Shown here in pieces: positions 22,547 through 40,515 of a DNA stretch of 40,515 nucleotides. The notes beneath the pieces were generated by a model that made no database searches, was not told the DNA's origin, and worked only from the letters and a program-made list of their open reading frames with translations. Position 1 is the stretch's first letter, and each line of letters begins with the position of its first letter. The stretch comes from Candidatus Methylacidiphilales bacterium (GTDB taxonomy: Bacteria > Verrucomicrobiota > Verrucomicrobiia > Methylacidiphilales > JAAUTS01): positions 1 to 40,515 of the forward strand of contig JAQTNW010000030.1 in assembly GCA_028713655.1 (NCBI GenBank), written 5' to 3'. A program made the translations under genes and the position numbers.

Positions 22547-22896
22547 GCGCATTTTTAACGCAACTCGCGATATATATCGCGAGCGGGAGGGCGTAAGGCG
22601 CAAAGACGCCAGAAATATTGTCTCTACAGGAGCGCGGGCGTCCCGCCCGCTTCTTCCGGCATCCTGCCGGAAGGTTTCTTTTGCTGCCCTCTGTTTTATG
22701 CGTCCGCATGAAAAGACGAGCGCCGCTGTCGCCCCATTTAATTTAAAAAATCTCGTCTATTTGGATCGGCATGAATAGCCTGTGCCAACGATAATTATAT
22801 TCGTGCTTTTGTCCCAAGGAAACTACGAGACCACAGAAAAAGCCGTCCGAGCGATTCGGCTGTATTTAGCATAATCCGCTGATATCCTCATTTGTC
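22547..22896. repeat. Gene-free stretch between pntB and obgE with palindromes and repeats
   Basis: No plausible gene. It holds the perfect 20-bp palindrome CTCGCGATATATATCGCGAG (22564-22583), a GGCGTAAGGCGCAAAGACGC repeat (22590-22609), a double-hairpin element (22630-22673) and an imperfect hairpin AGCCG/CGGCT (22841-22861) shortly before obgE. The last 150 bp are AT-rich and should contain the obgE promoter. Confidence 0.65.
22630..22673. repeat. Double-hairpin dispersed element, copy 1
   Basis: GCGGGCG-TCC-CGCCCGC (22634-22650) is followed by CTTCCGGCA-TCC-TGCCGGAAG (22653-22673). A second copy of the pair, with compensated changes in the first stem, lies at 32421-32464. Paired hairpins of this type resemble REP elements. 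Confidence 0.7.
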
Positions 22897-31040: not shown

Positions 31041-32369
31041 ATGAAAAATACAGAAAAATGGGTATGTCTTGCTGCTTTGGCAATTTTGAGTGCGACAGCC
31101 GCCAGAGCGGACACCATCAATAGCGGAGTTTACATTGGAAACCTCTCAATCCAGCCAGATACCGGGGCCAATCCTGTTGAAGCGGGCGACCTCACCCTAT
31201 CCGGCGCATTGGATGTATTTGGCAATACTTTGAACTTGGGCACCGCAGGTTCCAGCCCTGGAATTAGTTTTACCTATACAGACGATGCTACTGGACAAAC
31301 CACCACGATCAACTTGGCCGGAGCGCGTAACAGCACGACTTGGCGCTGGCAGCAGAACAGCAGTGGAGGGATGAAGGATAAGATGAAACTGGATCAGAAC
31401 AACGTGCTGACGATACAGGCGCCGGACTACTCCGGTGGAAACGCGGGAAAAATTGTCCTGACACCCAACACCAGTGGCAGCCAGATCACCATTGACGGGA
31501 ATGCATTGCTGACGGCCTCGGCCGCTGCGGGCATCTATTTAACTCAAAGCGCGGCGGACCAAAGATATACCCTGGCAAATTCAATTTGGGCAGCGTCAGG
31601 CTCGAATGGAATTGTCACTTCTGATTCGGTTGGGATTGGAACCAGCAATCCAAATCCCAATACGGCTTTAACAGTATCCGGTGGTGCTGCGGGAACGGCG
31701 TTACAGTTATATGCACGTTCTACCGACGGACAATCTACTCCCGTATTTTCCGTGGGAGATGCGATTGTGCCTAATCGGAATTGGATTGACTCGTACGGAA
31801 TCATGAGAGTTGGAACAGGATTGGTGGTCGGTTCAAATACATTCAATGACCCCAATGTCGGCACCACGTTTCCAGTGGGATTGTATGTTGTAGGCGGCTC
31901 TTGCTCCATGTTTGTTTATGGCACGGACAGTAGCGACGACAGGGCGATGATGAGATTTAGATCCAAAAACTCAGCCTTGATGTACATGGGAGTAAAATAT
32001 AATTCCGGCATGACGCAGTGCGGTTTTTTTAATCAAAACGGCGATTCTAACAATCCGTTAATGGTTATAAATAACGGCAATGCCGGCAATTCCGGCGGAC
32101 AAGTCGGGATTGGCACAGGCAATCCGGCTGCGCAGTTGCAAATCAATGTGGCCAATCCAACTTATATCGGGCAAATAGTGAAGGGGGCAGCCTCACAAAC
32201 AGCCAACCTCACACAGTGGCAGAATAGTTCAGGAACGGTATTGGCGAAAATTGATGCCAATGGAAATTTCACGACTAACGGTAATGCCACAGTTACCGGC
32301 AGCATGGCTGTGCAAGGCCCGATCACCGCCGCTCCCGGTGGAAACATCCCCATGTTCACAGGCAATTGA
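31041..32369 (+). CDS. Secreted tail-fibre-like repeat protein
   Basis: This 442-residue protein has a signal peptide (hydrophobic WVCLAALAILSATAARA, cleavage before DTIN) and an excellent Shine-Dalgarno (AAGGAAGGA at 31027-31035). The body is low in charge, rich in Gly, Asn, Ser and Thr, and contains units known from phage tail fibres and trimeric surface fibres: LTQSAADQRYTLANSIW, SVGIGTSNPNPNTALTVSGG, QVGIGTGNPAAQLQINVANP and GTVLAKIDANGNFTTNGNAT. No chaperone-type autocleavage domain is seen at the C-terminus, and it ends PAPGGNIPMFTGN-like (APGGNIPMFTGN). It is probably an exported fibrous structural or adhesion protein. Its stop overlaps a possible TTG start of the CHAT gene and lies 17 bp before the preferred ATG, so the two are coupled. 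Confidence 0.8.
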   Translation: MKNTEKWVCLAALAILSATAARADTINSGVYIGNLSIQPDTGANPVEAGDLTLSGALDVFGNTLNLGTAGSSPGISFTYTDDATGQTTTINLAGARNSTTWRWQQNSSGGMKDKMKLDQNNVLTIQAPDYSGGNAGKIVLTPNTSGSQITIDGNALLTASAAAGIYLTQSAADQRYTLANSIWAASGSNGIVTSDSVGIGTSNPNPNTALTVSGGAAGTALQLYARSTDGQSTPVFSVGDAIVPNRNWIDSYGIMRVGTGLVVGSNTFNDPNVGTTFPVGLYVVGGSCSMFVYGTDSSDDRAMMRFRSKNSALMYMGVKYNSGMTQCGFFNQNGDSNNPLMVINNGNAGNSGGQVGIGTGNPAAQLQINVANPTYIGQIVKGAASQTANLTQWQNSSGTVLAKIDANGNFTTNGNATVTGSMAVQGPITAAPGGNIPMFTGN

Positions 32370-32386
32370 TTGGAGCTTTTACCCGC

Positions 32387-35300
32387 ATGACGCGACACTT
32401 TCCACGAGTTGTTCCACTAGGAGCACAGGCGTCCCACCTGCTCCTTCCGGCATCATGCCGGAAGGCTTTCTTTGTTTTTACGCGCCTCTGGAGAGTTGTT
32501 CACAGTTCCCGTTCCGTCCTTCGTCCTCTTGCGTCTTTTGCCCTTTGCGTCTTGGCGTTAAATTGCTTGGCTCCCTCTCTCTCCGCCACCCAGCCGGCTT
32601 GGTGGACCGCCCGCGGCGCGGTTAGCAGCTCTCTGAGCGCGAATGACTACGCGGTAGTCAACCAGGGCCAGCTCAAGCAGTTCACCCAAAAAGCCGTCCA
32701 AGAAATGAACGTCGGCCTGGCTGGTGGAGCGGGCAGCGACCTCAACACCCTCGTCACCGGCTGGCAGCAGGAATACCAAGCCAACGGTTGGAACGGGACC
32801 AACCCAAAGCCCTCCGACTTCACGGTAATGACCGTCGGCCAATTAAAATACATCGCCGGCAAAATCTGGAGCCGGTTGGTGGCCGCCGGCTACACCGCCT
32901 CAGCGCCCTCCTGGCTTGCCGTCAACGCAGCCACCGATAACCAGGCTGCCAACCTCGGTCAGCTCAAAACCGTCTTTAACTTTAATCTGAGCAACTTTCT
33001 GCCCGCCGCCTGGCAACAACAGAACTTTGGACATACTGGCGTGGATCCCAATGCCGATCCCGATGGCGACGGGCTCAGTAACCTCCAAGAATATCAGGGA
33101 GGCAGCGATCCCAACAACTATTACAACCAGGACTCCTACACCATCACCCCGCAGGTCACGATCGTCAGCGGAAACAACCAGACAAGTGATCCTGGTACCT
33201 TTGCAGCAAATCCTTTGCTTATCCAAGTAACCGACAGTGCAACAGGCCTGCCGCTCTCCAATGCGCCAATAACATTTAGTGTCACGCAAGGCGGAGGCAA
33301 GCTTACGACCATAAACACGCCCGTCGCCCAGCAATACGACAGCCTGCCCATGCGGACTGACATCAACGGCTATGCTGTTGTTTATCAAGGAACAACTGCA
33401 AATGTTTATTATTTGCAACCTGCCGGGGAAGGAATAATCAGCCAGATCAGCGTCACAGCGGGAACCGGGTTCCCCGCCCAATTTACGGTTACCACCAATT
33501 ATATCAGTGTCCCGGCCGACCCAAGCAATTTCAGCGTGACCACAAACGGAGACGGCAGCCTGACTTACTCCTGGCAGGATAATTCCGGCAATGAGACGGG
33601 CTTTGTCATCCAGTATCAGCAAAGCAACGGCAATTGGGTACAGTTGGGAACGGTCGGCGCCAACCAAACCAGCTTCACCGTGGACGCCGCCACAGCCGCC
33701 GCCGCAGGCGTCAACGGTTCAACCAATGCCCGCAGCGTGGCCACCAACCCAGCCGGACAGTCAGGCGGTTCCAACCAAAGCAATCCCCCGCCGCCGATTC
33801 CTTCCTCTCCGACAAGCCTGAGCGGATCGTTTGACGATTCCGGCAACATGAACCTTTCCTGGACGCCTTCAGCGGGGGCAACCAGTTATCAGATCGAACG
33901 CGAAACGCTGAGCACAGGAACCTGGGAAAATCTGGGCACCGCAACGGGTGCCACTTATCAGGACACGAGCAGAACGGCCGGAACTGGTTATCATTACCGG
34001 GTCAGCGCAATCAATTCGACCGGCTCGGCAACTTCGAATGAATTCCCGGCTTCCAGCTATGCGGTGATTGATCTGGGATTGAATTTTGTGCCGGTTGGGA
34101 TTAATAACAGCGGTGTGGTGGCGGGAAACGGGCCTCCAGACGGCAACCCAACAGGCGCTTGGGTCCCGCAAGTCTGGAATCAGGGGGTTCTGACTGCGCT
34201 TCAATTGTACCCGGGAAACGGGGTTAGCAGCTCTATTACCAGCATCGACGACTCCAACCACATCACGGGGCAGATTCTTGGCAATGTTTACGATTCGGAT
34301 GGTAACCCGATCGGAAATGATTCCGCCGCCGGTTACTGGACCAGTACGACAGAAGTACCCCTACGTATTGGACTGGGATGGCAGGGTGTCATGGGAGGAC
34401 CCAACGATACAGGACCTGCAATCATCAGCGACGAGGGCTTTATCGTGGGACATGGCGAAGGAGGTTATGTGCTCCAGTTTGATCCATCGGATGCCCCGCC
34501 GAATTTAGCTCATCTTTTATCGGACACTTTAACTCGCGTCGATGTAACCGGAGCAGCAGGGACTTCGAGTTGGTGTGGGTATGGGTACTACGGACCCGGA
34601 CCGGTCATAAACGGAACGACCTATACCACTTCTCCCACGCTCCATCCGTATGCCATTAACGATAGCAACCTGGTCGTGGGCGGAGACGGTTCCAATGCCA
34701 AGCTGGTGCAGGTTTCAGGATCAACCCTTCAAATCACCAACCTGGGCTCGGGCGCAGCAAAAGCCCTCAACAACCACACCAGCACCATCAGCGGCAGTTC
34801 CACCCCAACGCCTCAGATCATTGGATTCGATGGCCCAGGCAACGGCACACTCTGGGAAAAGACCAAGTTCGACGGCAGCTCCTCGGACACCTATATCAAA
34901 AAGAATCTTAACGATCTAATCCCAACAACAAGCGGCTGGGTTTTGCAAAGCCCCACCTACTCCAGCCCCTGCGTCGCCATCAACAACTCGGCCCTAATCG
35001 TCGGCACCGCAACCTACTCAGGCTCCGATTCCTCCATCGCCCCAGGCCAGCACGGAATCATGCTGATTCCGTTTGAAGTGGTTAGGGAAACTCAACCCGG
35101 AAGCAGCCAATATCATAAAATAGACCAAGTCCCGCTTTTCCAGGGCGACCCCAGGCAGTTTGGAGAAAACGATACTGGGGTAGAATCCATCCCCCTCAAT
35201 ATTACACCCCAAATGACAATTTCAGCCGGTGCCTTTTCGGCGGATCAGCCCGACAGCATATTTGTTCATCTGGATGGCAAAGCGACGGGGGAATTCAACG

Positions 35301-36991
35301 GGACTTTGGTGGAAACCGGAAACAATACAAACACATTTGCCAACAATGATGGCACTGTGACTGTTGTTTTGAACTCCGCGAATGCAAATGCCTGGCAGGC
35401 CATCGTTTCAGTTGCGGCCTTGGGTTACTCAAATACACCATTCACGTTGAAGCACACCGGAACGAATACTTATGCCTCCTTTGTGCAATTGGCTGAGGCA
35501 GACAATGTTTATTTGGACGACGGAGCCATTGATACGCTTCATATCAGCATCCTGTATGGTGACGCCAATTCTCCAGTGGCCAATCTGGGCCAGCCTTTGG
35601 CTGTAACCGCGGTTGAAACAGGAGCCAATACTCGCCAATTTGTTGATGCTGCCAATGGCATAACTGTCCAAGTACTCAACAATCCCACCTTCGACAGTTC
35701 CGCTATTGATGTTCTTCAATGCAAAATTTACACCACAACTGATCCACAGAGCGCGGTGACCGTTGAACTTCTTGAAACAGGCCCCAATACAAGGAATTTC
35801 ACCAGTCAGACCCGCCAAATTAGCCTGCTTGATGACCATAGCAGCGAAGCCAACGATCCGGAAACCCTAGGCAGCGGAGTGTGTTTTGTAAAAATGCCAC
35901 AGATAACCGGCTTGAATTCGATTAAAATTCATACTTCGGATCAAGAAAATGATCCGGGGGTGGAAGTTCCGCTTCAGGCCATGCCAAATCAGCCAGGCAT
36001 GATGATTTCAGAGCCGTTCATCTTACTGCCCCAAGACTCGCAGAAAGAATATGCCCACTATAACAGCACCACTCTTCATAACGTGCGTTCCGCAGTCAGC
36101 AATGCCGATCACATCAACTATAACTTTGTATTTGATAATGCCCCGGACACAAAAAGTGGCGTCAAGACAGCAGTTCAGCGCGGGCTTTTTGCTGCGTGGT
36201 CAGTCCCTGAAATGATGAGAGGAAACCCCGAAGTCGAAAGGCATTTGCGGGGCTATCCGGATGCTGCAACAGAAAGCCAGAATGTGCCGCCGGATTCCGT
36301 TATACAACAGGATGAGCAGCGGATGCTAAATAGCCTTGCAAATGTCCGAACGGATGGAGATGCCAATCTTGAATTATACGGCAATGTCAGAAACAAGAAT
36401 TTGCTTTGGGCTGACAATACCGACATCGGAGACGTGCTGCGCCGCTATGATTATGTTCTATTGGCCTGTCACGGGATGACCCGTGCTTCGCATTTCGATT
36501 TTTATCAAACCCCGGAAGCTCCCCGTGTTGGGTTCCAAGGCTTTGTTTTAATGAAACACCAGAACGGCAACATACAATTTCAGGGTTACACGCCTGACGA
36601 TGTCAAGATGATGACTTTGTTGGCGGCACCGAAACTTGTGTTCCTGAGCGCATGTGGCTCGGCAGAAAATCGGCAAGGAGCCAAGACCCAGGAAATGCGG
36701 GATGCCTTCCGTTCCTATGTCTATATTGGCTGGAGCGACGAAGTCTTCATGCGCCAGGCAGCGTATGCAGAGGAGAGATTTTTCAAAGAGTTTAAAGAGG
36801 ATACAACAGTTCTGACAGCCCTTGACCGCGCCAGTTCAGAATCGCCGGCCAAAATCGAATTGGCTGACATGGCCAATCACCCGGATGAAGTAATTGCGCA
36901 ATTGAATAGGTTGGAAGATATTGCGCCCAGTTCTTATACGGCAAAGCAATTGATTGAAAAGAAGGTGCCTGGGACCGTGCAAAATCCATGA
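32387..36991 (+). CDS. Very large secreted protein with C-terminal CHAT/caspase-like protease domain
   Basis: From the ATG at 32387 (GGAG 11 bp upstream) the protein has 1,534 residues; a TTG at 32366 would add seven. In order: a long N-terminus with a signal-type core LASFALCVLALNCLAPSLSA (about 50-70); GQLK repeats (NQGQLKQF, TVGQLKYIA, NLGQLKTVF; 90-205); a calcium-type DPNADPDGDGLSNLQEY; a Big_1-like Ig domain (about 250-370); two Fn3-like domains (375-560); HAF-type repeats (GINNSGVVAG, AINDSNLVVG, AINNSALIVG; 565-900); three beta units with ETGxNTxxF (950-1150); and a protease-like domain with His1362 (LLACHGM) and Cys1423 (FLSACGS), then YIGWSDEVF. The His-Gly and Ser-Ala-Cys pairing fits CHAT proteases, clan CD; gingipain-like C25 is an alternative. 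CHAT enzymes are usually cytoplasmic, so export is unusual. The partner at 36988 overlaps by 4 bp. Confidence 0.8.
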   Translation: MTRHFPRVVPLGAQASHLLLPASCRKAFFVFTRLWRVVHSSRSVLRPLASFALCVLALNCLAPSLSATQPAWWTARGAVSSSLSANDYAVVNQGQLKQFTQKAVQEMNVGLAGGAGSDLNTLVTGWQQEYQANGWNGTNPKPSDFTVMTVGQLKYIAGKIWSRLVAAGYTASAPSWLAVNAATDNQAANLGQLKTVFNFNLSNFLPAAWQQQNFGHTGVDPNADPDGDGLSNLQEYQGGSDPNNYYNQDSYTITPQVTIVSGNNQTSDPGTFAANPLLIQVTDSATGLPLSNAPITFSVTQGGGKLTTINTPVAQQYDSLPMRTDINGYAVVYQGTTANVYYLQPAGEGIISQISVTAGTGFPAQFTVTTNYISVPADPSNFSVTTNGDGSLTYSWQDNSGNETGFVIQYQQSNGNWVQLGTVGANQTSFTVDAATAAAAGVNGSTNARSVATNPAGQSGGSNQSNPPPPIPSSPTSLSGSFDDSGNMNLSWTPSAGATSYQIERETLSTGTWENLGTATGATYQDTSRTAGTGYHYRVSAINSTGSATSNEFPASSYAVIDLGLNFVPVGINNSGVVAGNGPPDGNPTGAWVPQVWNQGVLTALQLYPGNGVSSSITSIDDSNHITGQILGNVYDSDGNPIGNDSAAGYWTSTTEVPLRIGLGWQGVMGGPNDTGPAIISDEGFIVGHGEGGYVLQFDPSDAPPNLAHLLSDTLTRVDVTGAAGTSSWCGYGYYGPGPVINGTTYTTSPTLHPYAINDSNLVVGGDGSNAKLVQVSGSTLQITNLGSGAAKALNNHTSTISGSSTPTPQIIGFDGPGNGTLWEKTKFDGSSSDTYIKKNLNDLIPTTSGWVLQSPTYSSPCVAINNSALIVGTATYSGSDSSIAPGQHGIMLIPFEVVRETQPGSSQYHKIDQVPLFQGDPRQFGENDTGVESIPLNITPQMTISAGAFSADQPDSIFVHLDGKATGEFNGTLVETGNNTNTFANNDGTVTVVLNSANANAWQAIVSVAALGYSNTPFTLKHTGTNTYASFVQLAEADNVYLDDGAIDTLHISILYGDANSPVANLGQPLAVTAVETGANTRQFVDAANGITVQVLNNPTFDSSAIDVLQCKIYTTTDPQSAVTVELLETGPNTRNFTSQTRQISLLDDHSSEANDPETLGSGVCFVKMPQITGLNSIKIHTSDQENDPGVEVPLQAMPNQPGMMISEPFILLPQDSQKEYAHYNSTTLHNVRSAVSNADHINYNFVFDNAPDTKSGVKTAVQRGLFAAWSVPEMMRGNPEVERHLRGYPDAATESQNVPPDSVIQQDEQRMLNSLANVRTDGDANLELYGNVRNKNLLWADNTDIGDVLRRYDYVLLACHGMTRASHFDFYQTPEAPRVGFQGFVLMKHQNGNIQFQGYTPDDVKMMTLLAAPKLVFLSACGSAENRQGAKTQEMRDAFRSYVYIGWSDEVFMRQAAYAEERFFKEFKEDTTVLTALDRASSESPAKIELADMANHPDEVIAQLNRLEDIAPSSYTAKQLIEKKVPGTVQNP
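32421..32464. repeat. Double-hairpin dispersed element, copy 2, inside a coding region
   Basis: GAGCACAGG/CCTGCTC (32421-32442) is followed by CTTCCGGCA-TCA-TGCCGGAAG (32444-32464). It matches the element at 22630-22673. A CTTGCGTCTTTTGCCCTTTG block (32528-32547) follows about 60 bp later, also a dispersed intergenic type. Both lie within the predicted N-terminus of the CHAT protein. Confidence 0.7.
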
Positions 36992-37977
36992 AACAAATCG
37001 CCTTCATCACATTGATATTATTTGGCTGTTGGGCACAGGCAGTCCCAATGGCTTCCCCATCAGATACAGAAACAGACTCGGAAAGCGCCTGCCGTCACAA
37101 AACCAGTGTTCTGGTTGATAAAATCAACCAGTTTTATTTGGAGAATGGGTTTAAATCTTCATTGATACAAGTTTCGAAATGGAAACTGGAGTTGACAGAT
37201 GCTCCACATGACTACCACCAGGGGGCAATTCGATTAAATGGTTATAAAGATCCGAATCCAAGCCAGGTTGCAACATTCAATTTTTTACAAACATCATTCA
37301 AATTTATTCAGTTTTTTAATGATAACTATCATGCAAACGCACCTTTCTATGACGCGCCCGAACGAATTCCCAAATGGCCAAAGGAGAAGGCGGAACAGTT
37401 AGCCTCCGAGTTTGCTAAAATTTTTTTGCAAGATTGGAATCTTGCAGACTTTAAATTTGAAAAAGTTGTTTGGGAATCAAATTCAGGCGGCGGGGGACCA
37501 ATAGGTAAGCCCATGAAGTACAGCGAGGGTTATTGGATTGCAATTCTCCGGCGCACAACTCCCTCTGGAGTTCCTTTTGATGATGATTCGATTATGGTCG
37601 ATATTAGTGAAACGTATGGCCCATACATCCTGAGTCTGTTTTATTTGACCCACTATGAAGAAAAGCCATACCAAAAAATTGGCGAAGACAAGGGCTTGCA
37701 GCTTGCCAACGAAAAACTGCCTGAAATCCTGAAGCTGCAGGGGTTGGTTTCGGATACCAAGACCATCAGTGTTTTAGAAAAGCCCAGGATCCGGGAAGTC
37801 ATTGTTCGTCCCAATTATTGGCCCAAAACTTCCAAGCGACCCGTCACCTTGGAAGAGCGGTCTGAGGGCCGCCCCGCTTACATCGTCACGTACCATGTTT
37901 TAACAGCAGTAGGAAATAAACCTGTTGTGGTGTACATTGATTCCGAAACGGGCGATTTTTTGGGCGGAAATTACTAA
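36988..37977 (+). CDS. Putative lipoprotein with PepSY-like C-terminus, partner of the CHAT protein
   Basis: This 329-residue protein begins MKQIAFITLILFGCWAQA. The LFGC could be a lipobox (lipoprotein with Cys14) or the segment may be an ordinary signal peptide cut after AQA. The mature part has two regions with similar logic: a helix followed by a beta sheet at about 40-110, and again at about 130-220 (EKAEQLASEFAKIFLQDWNL ... GYWIAILRRTTPSGVPF ... DSIMVDISETYGPYILSLF). The C-terminus RPAYIVTYHVL ... VVVYIDSETGDFLGG is the PepSY pattern. PepSY domains occur as inhibitory or chaperone modules of secreted peptidases, so a role in restraining or folding the CHAT protease is an inference. The ATG overlaps the CHAT stop (ATGA). 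A perfect hairpin follows the gene. Confidence 0.75.
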   Translation: MKQIAFITLILFGCWAQAVPMASPSDTETDSESACRHKTSVLVDKINQFYLENGFKSSLIQVSKWKLELTDAPHDYHQGAIRLNGYKDPNPSQVATFNFLQTSFKFIQFFNDNYHANAPFYDAPERIPKWPKEKAEQLASEFAKIFLQDWNLADFKFEKVVWESNSGGGGPIGKPMKYSEGYWIAILRRTTPSGVPFDDDSIMVDISETYGPYILSLFYLTHYEEKPYQKIGEDKGLQLANEKLPEILKLQGLVSDTKTISVLEKPRIREVIVRPNYWPKTSKRPVTLEERSEGRPAYIVTYHVLTAVGNKPVVVYIDSETGDFLGGNY

Positions 37978-38215: not shown

Positions 38216-38395
38216 GCCCCCATCCCAACGTCAAGGCCTCCAAAAATGACCTCCTAAACGGTTGGCCTTGGAGTTGAAGGGACGCAGAACACGGCACCCC
38301 GAACAGGTTCGGTCAAGGGCCGTTCACGGTGCATCCGTCATGCTTCATTGATGCTTCAGTCATTCTTCTTTTGTGCATCACCATGCTCCGCACTG

Positions 38396-38653
38396 TCGAT
38401 TGATACCTGTGCCACCGAGATGCTCCGGGGCGGCGCTTCCGTCCGGCATGTGCAGGAAATGCTCGGTCACAGCCAGATTACCACCACCCAGGTGTACACC
38501 CGCGTTGTGCCGGTCGATCTAAAAAAGGTTCATCAAAAAACTTCTCCCAGCGAACGGTTGAAAAAGATCGACGTGCCTGCCTTCCAGCGCCTCGGCTGGG
38601 GCGGAGAAAAAAGACACAGGAAATGGCGTGCTTCCACTCCCGCAAAGGCATAG
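38396..38653 (+). pseudogene. 3' remnant of a tyrosine recombinase
   Basis: The frame reads TCATEMLRGGASVRHVQEML, then GHSQITTTQVYTRV, the C-terminal end of a XerC/D-type or phage-type tyrosine recombinase with the second catalytic His and the Tyr still present. Everything before, including the core-binding domain, the first Arg and the HxxR box, is missing; the upstream SIDT does not continue the fold. The tail runs on as DLKKVHQKTSPSERLK, as in many XerD-like proteins. It is a decayed insertion-module relic and differs from the integron integrase at 2786. Confidence 0.82.
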
Positions 38654-38654
38654 C

Positions 38655-39110
38655 GTGAACCCAGTGAATGTCCCAAGTCTCTATCTGGATACTTCCGTCA
38701 TCGGCGGGTATTATGATCCTCCATTCCAAGTTGCGACTCGTGAGTTGTGGCAAAAACAGCAGGCGGGAAAATACCGGTTCGTCTCCTCCCTGCTGGTGGA
38801 TTTTGAAATCTCCACCGCACCCCAGCAAGTGCAGGACTTGATGCAACGCACCTTTACAGAAGCCGACTTGTTGCCGCTCACAGTGGAAGTGGAGGCATTG
38901 GCCCGGGCTTATATGGCTAAAAAAATTGTCCCATCCAAATATGCCGACGATGCCACCCATGTGGCCATTGCCGTGGTACATCGAGTGCCGGTGTTGGTCA
39001 GTTGGAACTTCAAACATCTGGTCAACCGAGATCGACGCACCGCGTTCAACGCGGTAAATTTGTTGCAGGGGTATCCTCCAGTGGATATATTGAGTCCGTT
39101 GGAGTTGTAA
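38655..39110 (+). CDS. PIN-domain ribonuclease toxin (VapC-like)
   Basis: The frame is open from 38628; GTG at 38655 (after AAAGG) or GTG at 38664 are the likely starts, giving about 148-151 residues. PIN toxins are metal-dependent RNases. Acidic residues are at the expected places: Asp in LYLDTSVIGGYYD, Glu in LLVDFEIS, Asp in YADDATHVAIAVV, and the family end VLVSWNFKHLVNRDR ... GYPPVDILSPLEL. This type usually has a small antitoxin beside it; here the neighbour is the 54-codon gene 4 bp downstream. The gene follows the recombinase relic, consistent with a mobile module. Confidence 0.9.
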   Translation: MNPVNVPSLYLDTSVIGGYYDPPFQVATRELWQKQQAGKYRFVSSLLVDFEISTAPQQVQDLMQRTFTEADLLPLTVEVEALARAYMAKKIVPSKYADDATHVAIAVVHRVPVLVSWNFKHLVNRDRRTAFNAVNLLQGYPPVDILSPLEL

Positions 39111-39403: not shown

Positions 39404-39622
39404 GTGGGCTACTTCCTGAAACCCGAGATAGGTACAGGGAAAAACCGCGCTTTTTGGCGCGGGTCAAATGGAAATAATGCCCTAATCGTCGGCACCGCAA
39501 CCTACTCCGGCTCCGACAACTCCATCGCCCCAGGCCAGCACGGAATCATGTTGATTCCGTTTGAAGTGGTTAGGGAAACTCAACCCGGAAGCGGCCAATA
39601 TCTTTTTGGGGTCAACTCTCAA
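39404..39622 (+). pseudogene. Fragment of a CHAT-gene paralogue
   Basis: Positions 39479-39601 align to 34991-35113 of the large CHAT gene at offset 4488 with 6 mismatches in 123 bp. The translated piece reads ALIVGTATYSGSDNSIAPGQ, HGIMLIPFEVVRETQPGSGQ, the end of the HAF-type repeats. The flanks do not match. It then runs into LFGVNSQE where the insertion sequence begins. The 39280-39403 stretch before it shows nothing recognisable; a small hairpin CCGCGC/GCGCGG is at 39445-39462. Confidence 0.85.
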
Positions 39623-40515
39623 GAGGCTGTTGAAAAAGGGGATAAGTTAGCTTGAACATAGTGTACGGCCTGCTTGTCTAATCAGGATGCGTGGACGACA
39701 GCAAAAGCAGCAACCCTTGTTTGTGAATATCCGGCTGGAGGAGATGGTTCCGGGGAATCATCTTTTACGGCGCATCGAGCGCAAGATTGACTTCAACTTC
39801 ATCGACCAAAAGACCCAGGACCTCTACAGCACAATCGGAAGGCCGTCAATTGATCCCCAAGTTTTGGTGCGAATGATGTTTATCGGGTATCTTTTTGGCA
39901 TTCATTCGGAACGCCGTCTGTGCCAGGAAGTGCATTTGAATCTGGCTTACCGTTGGTTCTGCGGCTTGGGACTGGAAGACAAGGTGCCGGATCATTCGAC
40001 CTTCACCAAGAACCGGCATGGGCGTTTTGCCGGAACGACCTTGTTCCGGGATTTATTTTATGCGGTGGTGGACCAAGCCTTGGCGCGGGGCTTGATCCAA
40101 GGGCGGCATTTGAGTGTCGATGCCACCACGATGCAGGCCAATGCCTCCTTGGACAGTCTGGAGCCGATTGTTGTCCCCATGAGTGCGGAAGGCTACTGGC
40201 AGGAGGTCGAGGCGCAGAATCCGGTGCCGGAGGAAAACCCGCCGGATCCGAATCCGGATTCCAAAACGGACAAACCTAAAATCAGCAACGCAACTCACCG
40301 CAGCCAGAGTGCTCCCCAAGCCAGACTCTTTGCCAAACGTTTTGAGAAGACCCGCCTGCCTTACTCGGACAATGTGTTAATGGATAATGGAAGCCGGTTT
40401 ATTTTGGACGTTGAGGTGACCGAACCCAATGTGCATCAGGAGGGCCAAGCCGCCGCATCGATGGTGCAACGCAGCCGCTTTCGTTTAAAAATTGATCCTC
40501 AAAGCATAGGTGGAG
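39623..40515 (+). mobile_element. Insertion sequence, left part (runs off the window)
   Basis: The likely left terminal repeat is GAGGCTGTTGAAAAAGG at 39623-39639, a start shared by many IS4/IS5/IS1182-type elements, about 60 bp before the transposase ATG. The right end lies beyond the window, so the inverted repeat and target duplication cannot be tested. It interrupts or abuts the CHAT-paralogue fragment. Confidence 0.75.
39687..40515 (+). CDS. Transposase (IS1182/IS5-like DDE family), partial
   Basis: The frame is open from ATG 39687 to the window end (276 codons). The N-terminal domain reads VNIRLEEMVPGNHLLRRIER and RPSIDPQVLVRMMFIGYLFG, then ERRLCQEVHLNLAYRWFCGL and PDHSTFTKNR, the DUF772-type start of IS1182 and related transposases. 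The first catalytic Asp is Asp145 (LSVDATTMQANAS). A proline-rich insert (PVPEENPPDPNPDSKT) precedes the expected second Asp region (YSDNVLMDNGSRF). The remaining DDE residues are outside. No premature stop is seen, so the element may be active. Confidence 0.92.
   Translation, partial: MRGRQQKQQPLFVNIRLEEMVPGNHLLRRIERKIDFNFIDQKTQDLYSTIGRPSIDPQVLVRMMFIGYLFGIHSERRLCQEVHLNLAYRWFCGLGLEDKVPDHSTFTKNRHGRFAGTTLFRDLFYAVVDQALARGLIQGRHLSVDATTMQANASLDSLEPIVVPMSAEGYWQEVEAQNPVPEENPPDPNPDSKTDKPKISNATHRSQSAPQARLFAKRFEKTRLPYSDNVLMDNGSRFILDVEVTEPNVHQEGQAAASMVQRSRFRLKIDPQSIGG

Follow-up and report, generated by a model that had tools for sequence, protein, structure and literature searches.

The stretch of DNA analysed here (the window) is a contig of 40,515 nucleotides from Candidatus Methylacidiphilales bacterium, JAQTNW010000030.1, and is contig C30 of a genome of 3.29 Mb in 90 contigs, here called G000; other genomes, contigs and loci are named by handles of the same kind where they have to be told apart. 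Towards its 3' end are three genes, for a fibre-like protein, a large protein that consists of a carrier and a CHAT-type tip, and a smaller partner protein (Table 1). The TGA stop codon of the fibre gene (32367–32369) is 17 bp upstream of the ATG at 32387, which gives a large protein of 1534 amino acids; an overlapping TTG at 32366 would give 1541. The large-protein gene and the partner gene are joined by an ATGA. A preliminary description of this DNA had reported three exported, coupled genes, and the open reading frames, export signals and junctions are as it described them. Its suggestion of a surface-type system is supported, as is the export of all three products.

Table 1. Features of the fibre, carrier, tip and partner locus and of the sequence 3' of it in the window.
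Feature	Position	Strand	Remarks
Exported fibre-like protein, 442 amino acids	31041..32369	+	Open reading frame with signal peptide
Carrier and tip, 1534 amino acids	32387..36991	+	Sec signal, NQGQLK module, TSP3/Ig/Fn3, HAF-like blades, C-terminal CHAT tip
NQGQLK N-terminal module of the carrier	32627..33000	+	Limits approximate; common to hydrolase-tipped carriers
Carrier segment, residues 220–374	33044..33508	+	78–81% identity to G000:C53
Last HAF-like blade (NNSALIVGTATYSGS..GQHGIMLIPFEVVRE)	34973..35110	+	Recurrent exchange junction ahead of the tip
Exchangeable tip: beta repeats and CHAT domain	35111..36991	+	GC content 0.486, vs 0.56 in the carrier
Codon of presumed catalytic His1362	36470..36472	+	Invariant in 12 CHAT tips
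Codon of presumed catalytic Cys1423	36653..36655	+	Invariant in 12 CHAT tips
Exported triple-PepSY partner, 329 amino acids	36988..37977	+	Presumed immunity/inhibitor protein; GC content 0.435
Tyrosine integrase, C-terminal remnant	38348..38653	+	Phage_integrase 8.7e-9
Stub of the last HAF-like blade, 124 bp	39479..39602	+	95.2% identical to 34991–35114
Transposase reading frame	39687..40514	+	DUF772 transposase domain 1.7e-26; runs past contig end, adjoins stub

The C-terminal segment of the large protein matches the Pfam CHAT family (PF12770) with 26.4 bits (E value 5.7e-6), above the cut-off of 24, and the whole protein of 1534 amino acids matches it with 22.7 bits (E value 7.8e-5), below that cut-off. 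At an E value of 0.5 only 3 of 13 family members have this match. Single-sequence queries for CHAT tips gave almost nothing and profiles were required; profile searches of the order and a related class found more large exported proteins with the same C-terminal domain. The relatives named in this work are metagenome-assembled Verrucomicrobiales and Kiritimatiellae, and the scan of genome contigs, which used the narrower subfamily A9, is biased toward that subfamily. Twelve CHAT loci are intact, and the comparison of CHAT domains and partners was made with these. The preliminary description had placed a CHAT or clan CD domain at the end of the large protein, with its His and Cys in place, and across the intact loci neither residue varies.

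Against solved structures, the profile of the CHAT family matches only caspase-3 and a CHAT protein, both weakly (E values 0.52 and 0.82). The structural model of the domain has a mean predicted local distance difference test score (pLDDT) of 50, with 60–79 in the core. Foldseek ranked SAVED-CHAT first for this model (5e-4), and a second structural comparison gave Z scores of 10.2 for SAVED-CHAT, 9.1 for separase and 7–8 for Craspase, with gingipain and legumain lower; every one of its top rows is a protein of clan CD or of the CHAT/separase type. Similarity to clan CD is thus found by profile and by fold, and the large protein ends in a CHAT domain of that clan, like those of separase and Craspase.

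The partner had been called a PepSY-like lipoprotein with a fold used by peptidase inhibitors. Its PepSY nature is weak by sequence, with a Pfam PepSY score of 18.5 bits, under the 24-bit cut-off (23.6 for the best family member), and a match at an E value of 0.5 in 8 of 15 partners. It is clear by the modelled fold (pLDDT 78.5, predicted template modelling score 0.75), which has three helix-and-sheet units. In Foldseek YpeB was the sole strong match (2.6e-8), and the second comparison gave YpeB a Z score of 13.7 over 218 residues, the fungalysin propeptide 10.2 and the vibriolysin propeptide 8.6. On this model the partner is an exported triple-PepSY protein; among solved folds YpeB is nearest to it, and metalloprotease propeptides come next. 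The proposal of an inhibitor-type fold is supported, in the form of a fold of protease propeptides and inhibitors. The lipoprotein label is unsupported, because the lipobox of the window copy (LFGC) is atypical and most homologues have plain Sec-type hydrophobic leaders (judged by eye); a lipoprotein partner was rejected, no typical lipobox being found.

Imm35 (PF15567) has weak matches in the C-terminal part of several partners, the best with an E value of 0.014 and 16 bits against a cut-off of 27.5. When the 15 partners were compared with Pfam at an E value of 0.5, neither Imm36 nor Imm57 appeared, Pfam coverage of each of the two families not having been checked. NCBIfam gave no useful name for the proteins scanned, and no homologues of the partner were found in viral and plasmid collections.

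In all of the 12 intact loci the partner gene is immediately 3' of the CHAT gene, with a spacing of −4 to +17 bp. The description of a dedicated partner is supported. Distances between the CHAT domains and between the partners of these loci are correlated (Mantel r 0.92, reached in 0 of 5000 permutations). Genomes G263 and G313 each have two types of CHAT domain, and each type has its own type of partner; because these paralogous pairs match type for type, the correspondence is not due only to shared species history. The CHAT tip and the PepSY partner co-diversify.

The CHAT domain is one of several exchangeable tips, and the layout of carrier, tip and presumed protector recurs in related bacteria. 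Two genomes of one genus, G014 and G024, have 975 bp of carrier in common at 89.7% DNA identity, which ends in the last HAF-like blade – beyond it G014 encodes a CHAT tip and PepSY partner, and G024 an alpha/beta-hydrolase tip and a CarboxypepD-like exported protein. In G538, three consecutive proteins with carrier modules 79–87% identical have as their ends DUF6973 (9.2e-13), an unknown domain and CHAT, and each is followed by a different exported protein. Two neighbours in G313 have an 84% identical module, one with a CHAT tip and the other with an alpha/beta hydrolase. Tips of the alpha/beta-hydrolase type with other exported partners are found in G048, G039 and G024, and homologous CarboxypepD-like exported proteins follow the hydrolase tips of G024, G039 and G036. 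A profile of the junction blade found further carriers, whose tips are hydrolases or of unknown kind and which are each followed by an exported protein. This polymorphism of the tip is absent from the preliminary description, and it puts the unit beside the known polymorphic-toxin systems.

At the DUF6973-tipped carrier of G538 (L038, 3–4051) the exported follower has 211 amino acids, and DUF6973 may be a toxin domain. No paper in the open-access literature searched joins DUF6973 with toxin.

Upstream of the tip, Pfam names Fn3 (3.4e-10) and TSP3_bac (1e-3) in the large protein. Among the Ig, Fn3, HAF and beta repeats that had been claimed for it, Fn3 is recognised by Pfam; HAF is not named by Pfam, yet is visible as repeats. 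The NQGQLK module is 52.9% identical to that of G048 over residues 29–202, and is also present in G039 and G024. Homologues of the fibre-like protein are encoded directly 5' of the NQGQLK-type carriers in all three of these genomes, where the tips are all non-CHAT, and the homologue in G048 has YadA-head repeats (YadA_head 2.5e-34). Because fibre homologues precede carriers with other tips, gene 1 goes with the carrier and gene 3, the presumed protector, with the tip. Neither result that the preliminary description had named as refuting it was obtained, but its expectation that the three genes would stay together in relatives has to be restated in two parts, for the CHAT and PepSY pair (12 of 12 intact CHAT loci) and for the fibre and NQGQLK carrier (G000, G048, G039 and G024). 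The triplet as a whole is not fixed, because the tip and partner are exchanged as one unit, and a fixed three-gene operon was rejected.

Other carriers have an alternative first gene, gene X, for which homology to the fibre gene was not found by these searches. On contig C53 of G000 (L026, 13924–15496), gene X, which encodes an exported protein of unknown family, is followed by a carrier start that is ended by the contig edge; this copy has segment 220–374 in common with the carrier of the window and a different N-terminal module. Gene X is also 5' of carriers at two places in G014. On contig C15 of G014 (L060, 7781–11841), a unit with a HEIGH metallopeptidase-like tip and an exported follower of 282 amino acids is 3' of gene X and a carrier start, and adjoins a relaxase-like gene.

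Displaced cassettes are found beside several of the units. In the window, the sequence 3' of the 124-bp stub has no match to the tip and the transposase gene begins 85 bp on; the stub is probably a relic of a displaced tip cassette. G048 has a second tip 3' of the main gene, preceded by a stub of the junction blade and followed by an exported protein, and G042 has two stub-led tip units like it. Extra, orphan or tandem partners without a CHAT gene occur in G004, G045, G547, L046 and L052. Genome G000 has a second CHAT-tipped copy at the start of contig C20 (L019, 3–1703), which ends after the Cys and has no partner. The carrier end of that copy is nearly identical and its tip has diverged, and VapBC-like genes are behind it.

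Integrase, relaxase or transposase genes are close to the units in the window, G014 and G048, and the integrase remnant in the window is a sign of past mobility. The GC (guanine plus cytosine) content is higher in the carrier than in the tip at 9 of 9 loci, and higher in the tip than in the partner at all 8 loci with a partner measured. The evidence on GC content and exchange comes from few genomes, mostly metagenome-assembled. Between the integrase remnant and the stub, the window encodes a PIN-domain protein (38628–39110, E value 5.5e-4, just below the Pfam cut-off), probably a component of a type II toxin-antitoxin system. In G004 (L017, 2985–13998), a cluster of CHAT and partner genes has a MoxR/vWA-like pair on one side and a DUF58-like gene on the other (names given from sequence reading only), as if inserted in their operon. 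On contig C192 of G001 (L085, 1089–4703), a large protein is followed by two related small proteins, in a tandem immunity-like arrangement, near a HAF-like stub; the proteins scanned there have no Pfam name.

Polymorphic toxin systems are marked by variable tips on a constant carrier, a toxin-then-immunity gene order, stub cassettes and orphan immunity genes (PMC3482391). Because the loci here follow this pattern, it is probable that the locus is a Sec-exported, polymorphic-toxin-like unit of Verrucomicrobiota, in which the tip is a CHAT protease and the PepSY protein an immunity or inhibitor protein. In such a unit, the fibre or adhesin and the large beta-rich carrier would leave the cytoplasm by Sec export and, after passage across the outer membrane, be displayed on the cell surface or released from it. 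The carrier would deliver a tip that is enzymatic and exchangeable, in this case a cysteine protease of the CHAT type (clan CD), which would be toxic to a neighbouring or competing cell by cleaving proteins of that cell's envelope or periplasm. In the periplasm of the producer, the exported triple-PepSY protein would bind and block the tip, conferring immunity much as PepSY/FTP propeptides and YpeB restrain exported hydrolases. Recombination in the last HAF-like blade would replace tip and protector jointly. We lean, with less assurance, towards a broader proposal – that these units form an undescribed class of exported polymorphic weapons in Verrucomicrobiota, in which a fibre and a HAF-blade carrier outside the cell bear envelope-acting tips matched by exported immunity proteins, and a protease of the CHAT/separase fold serves as an extracellular toxin neutralised by a triple-PepSY protein.

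Several points weigh against this interpretation. Secreted proteases and lipases also serve ordinary digestion, and a PepSY protein can be a chaperone or propeptide rather than an immunity protein. Beyond the Sec signals, no dedicated secretion genes were recognised beside the loci read. Confidence in the model of the CHAT domain is low, CHAT domains of different subfamilies are only 13–25% identical, and the Mantel test leaves part of the shared ancestry in. Most loci are from metagenome-assembled genomes, some of them on short contigs, and a CHAT tip was found in 3 of 388 genomes of the phylum (E value 1e-3), so that the system is rare or under-sampled.

The main rival, which is unlikely overall, is a secreted degradative or nutritional protease on a surface fibre, with no role in antagonism and with the PepSY protein as an intermolecular propeptide or chaperone that keeps the protease folded and inactive during export. 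The nearest solved relatives of the partner, which are metalloprotease propeptides and YpeB, agree with this, as do the hydrolase- and metallopeptidase-like domains among the other tips, which are possibly digestive. However, partners are also found where no CHAT gene is present, as orphans or in tandem arrays; where the tip is a different one, the partner's position is taken by an unrelated exported protein; and the DUF6973 tip is no obvious digestive enzyme. Stub cassettes and the swapping of tips on one carrier are typical of polymorphic toxins (PMC3482391) and would be unexpected for a digestive enzyme.

Alternatively, the CHAT domain could be a processing or sorting protease that cuts its own carrier or the adjoining fibre to release or anchor it. 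Caspase-like domains are releasing peptidases in some polymorphic toxins (PMC3482391) and processing domains in other large secreted proteins, and the fibre and carrier genes are coupled. Processing domains lie upstream of the tip, however, and CHAT is the last domain; the fibre gene also accompanies hydrolase-tipped carriers, and the carrier and fibre do not need CHAT, because unrelated domains replace it on the same carrier. This explanation was rejected as improbable. A cytoplasmic CHAT effector of immunity or cell death, of the TPR-CHAT or SAVED-CHAT type, was already disfavoured and was rejected as very improbable – the fold is in common with those proteins, but a signal peptide and domains of extracellular type are present in the carrier, the partner is exported, and no CRISPR or CBASS-type genes were seen beside the loci read.

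Among known systems, the Tox-Caspase polymorphic toxins (Zhang et al. 2012, PMC3482391) also consist of a large exported protein whose C-terminal tip varies and whose last domain is a clan CD protease, and they too have the toxin-then-immunity order and displaced cassettes. Caspase-like tips are already listed there with Imm36 or Imm57 as the immunity protein, in contrast to the exported triple-PepSY partner found here; CHAT is unmentioned, and Verrucomicrobia are outside the listed spread of Tox-Caspase. The fibre/HAF carrier is also of neither the RHS, the filamentous-haemagglutinin nor the WXG type. Imm35, described as a possible protease inhibitor (PMC3482391), is similar in its weak matches to the C-terminal part of several partners, but the scores are far under the cut-off. 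TPR-CHAT/Csx29 (Craspase), SAVED-CHAT and separase have the same CHAT/separase fold with a His/Cys dyad. Those proteins are cytoplasmic or eukaryotic and are activated by RNA, by nucleotides or through the cell cycle, whereas the CHAT domain here is exported, at the end of a surface protein.

For the partner, the nearest parallel by structure is YpeB, which interacts with the hydrolase SleB and may keep it inactive (PMC13393411). That pair also consists of an adjoining exported hydrolase and triple-PepSY partner, but SleB is a spore-cortex peptidoglycan hydrolase rather than a protease, and the pair shows no exchange of tips. The PepSY/FTP propeptides of vibriolysin and fungalysin likewise put a PepSY-type fold in control of an exported protease; there the propeptide and its metalloprotease are made as one chain, whereas the partner here has a gene of its own and accompanies a cysteine protease. 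Neither a CHAT tip nor a PepSY immunity protein was found described in the open-access literature searched, and no paper there joins 'CHAT domain' with 'polymorphic toxin'.

If this interpretation is true, CHAT/separase-type proteases would join the tools that bacteria use against other cells, and a fold so far known from intracellular immunity and cell-cycle enzymes would have been turned into an extracellular toxin. The partner would be a natural protein inhibitor for a class of proteases also at work in Craspase and separase, and the carrier an exported one that has a recombination junction of its own, in a phylum with little-studied antagonism systems. The CHAT/PepSY pair is small and directly testable.

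Two kinds of repeated sequence were also seen in the window. An element of ca. 65 bp with CTTCCGGCATCATGCCGGAAG-like palindromes has two copies that are 85% identical (32409–32473 and 22618–22681), one of which falls within the signal region of the large protein. A direct repeat of 234 bp is found at 897–1130 and 2095–2328, with 99.6% identity.
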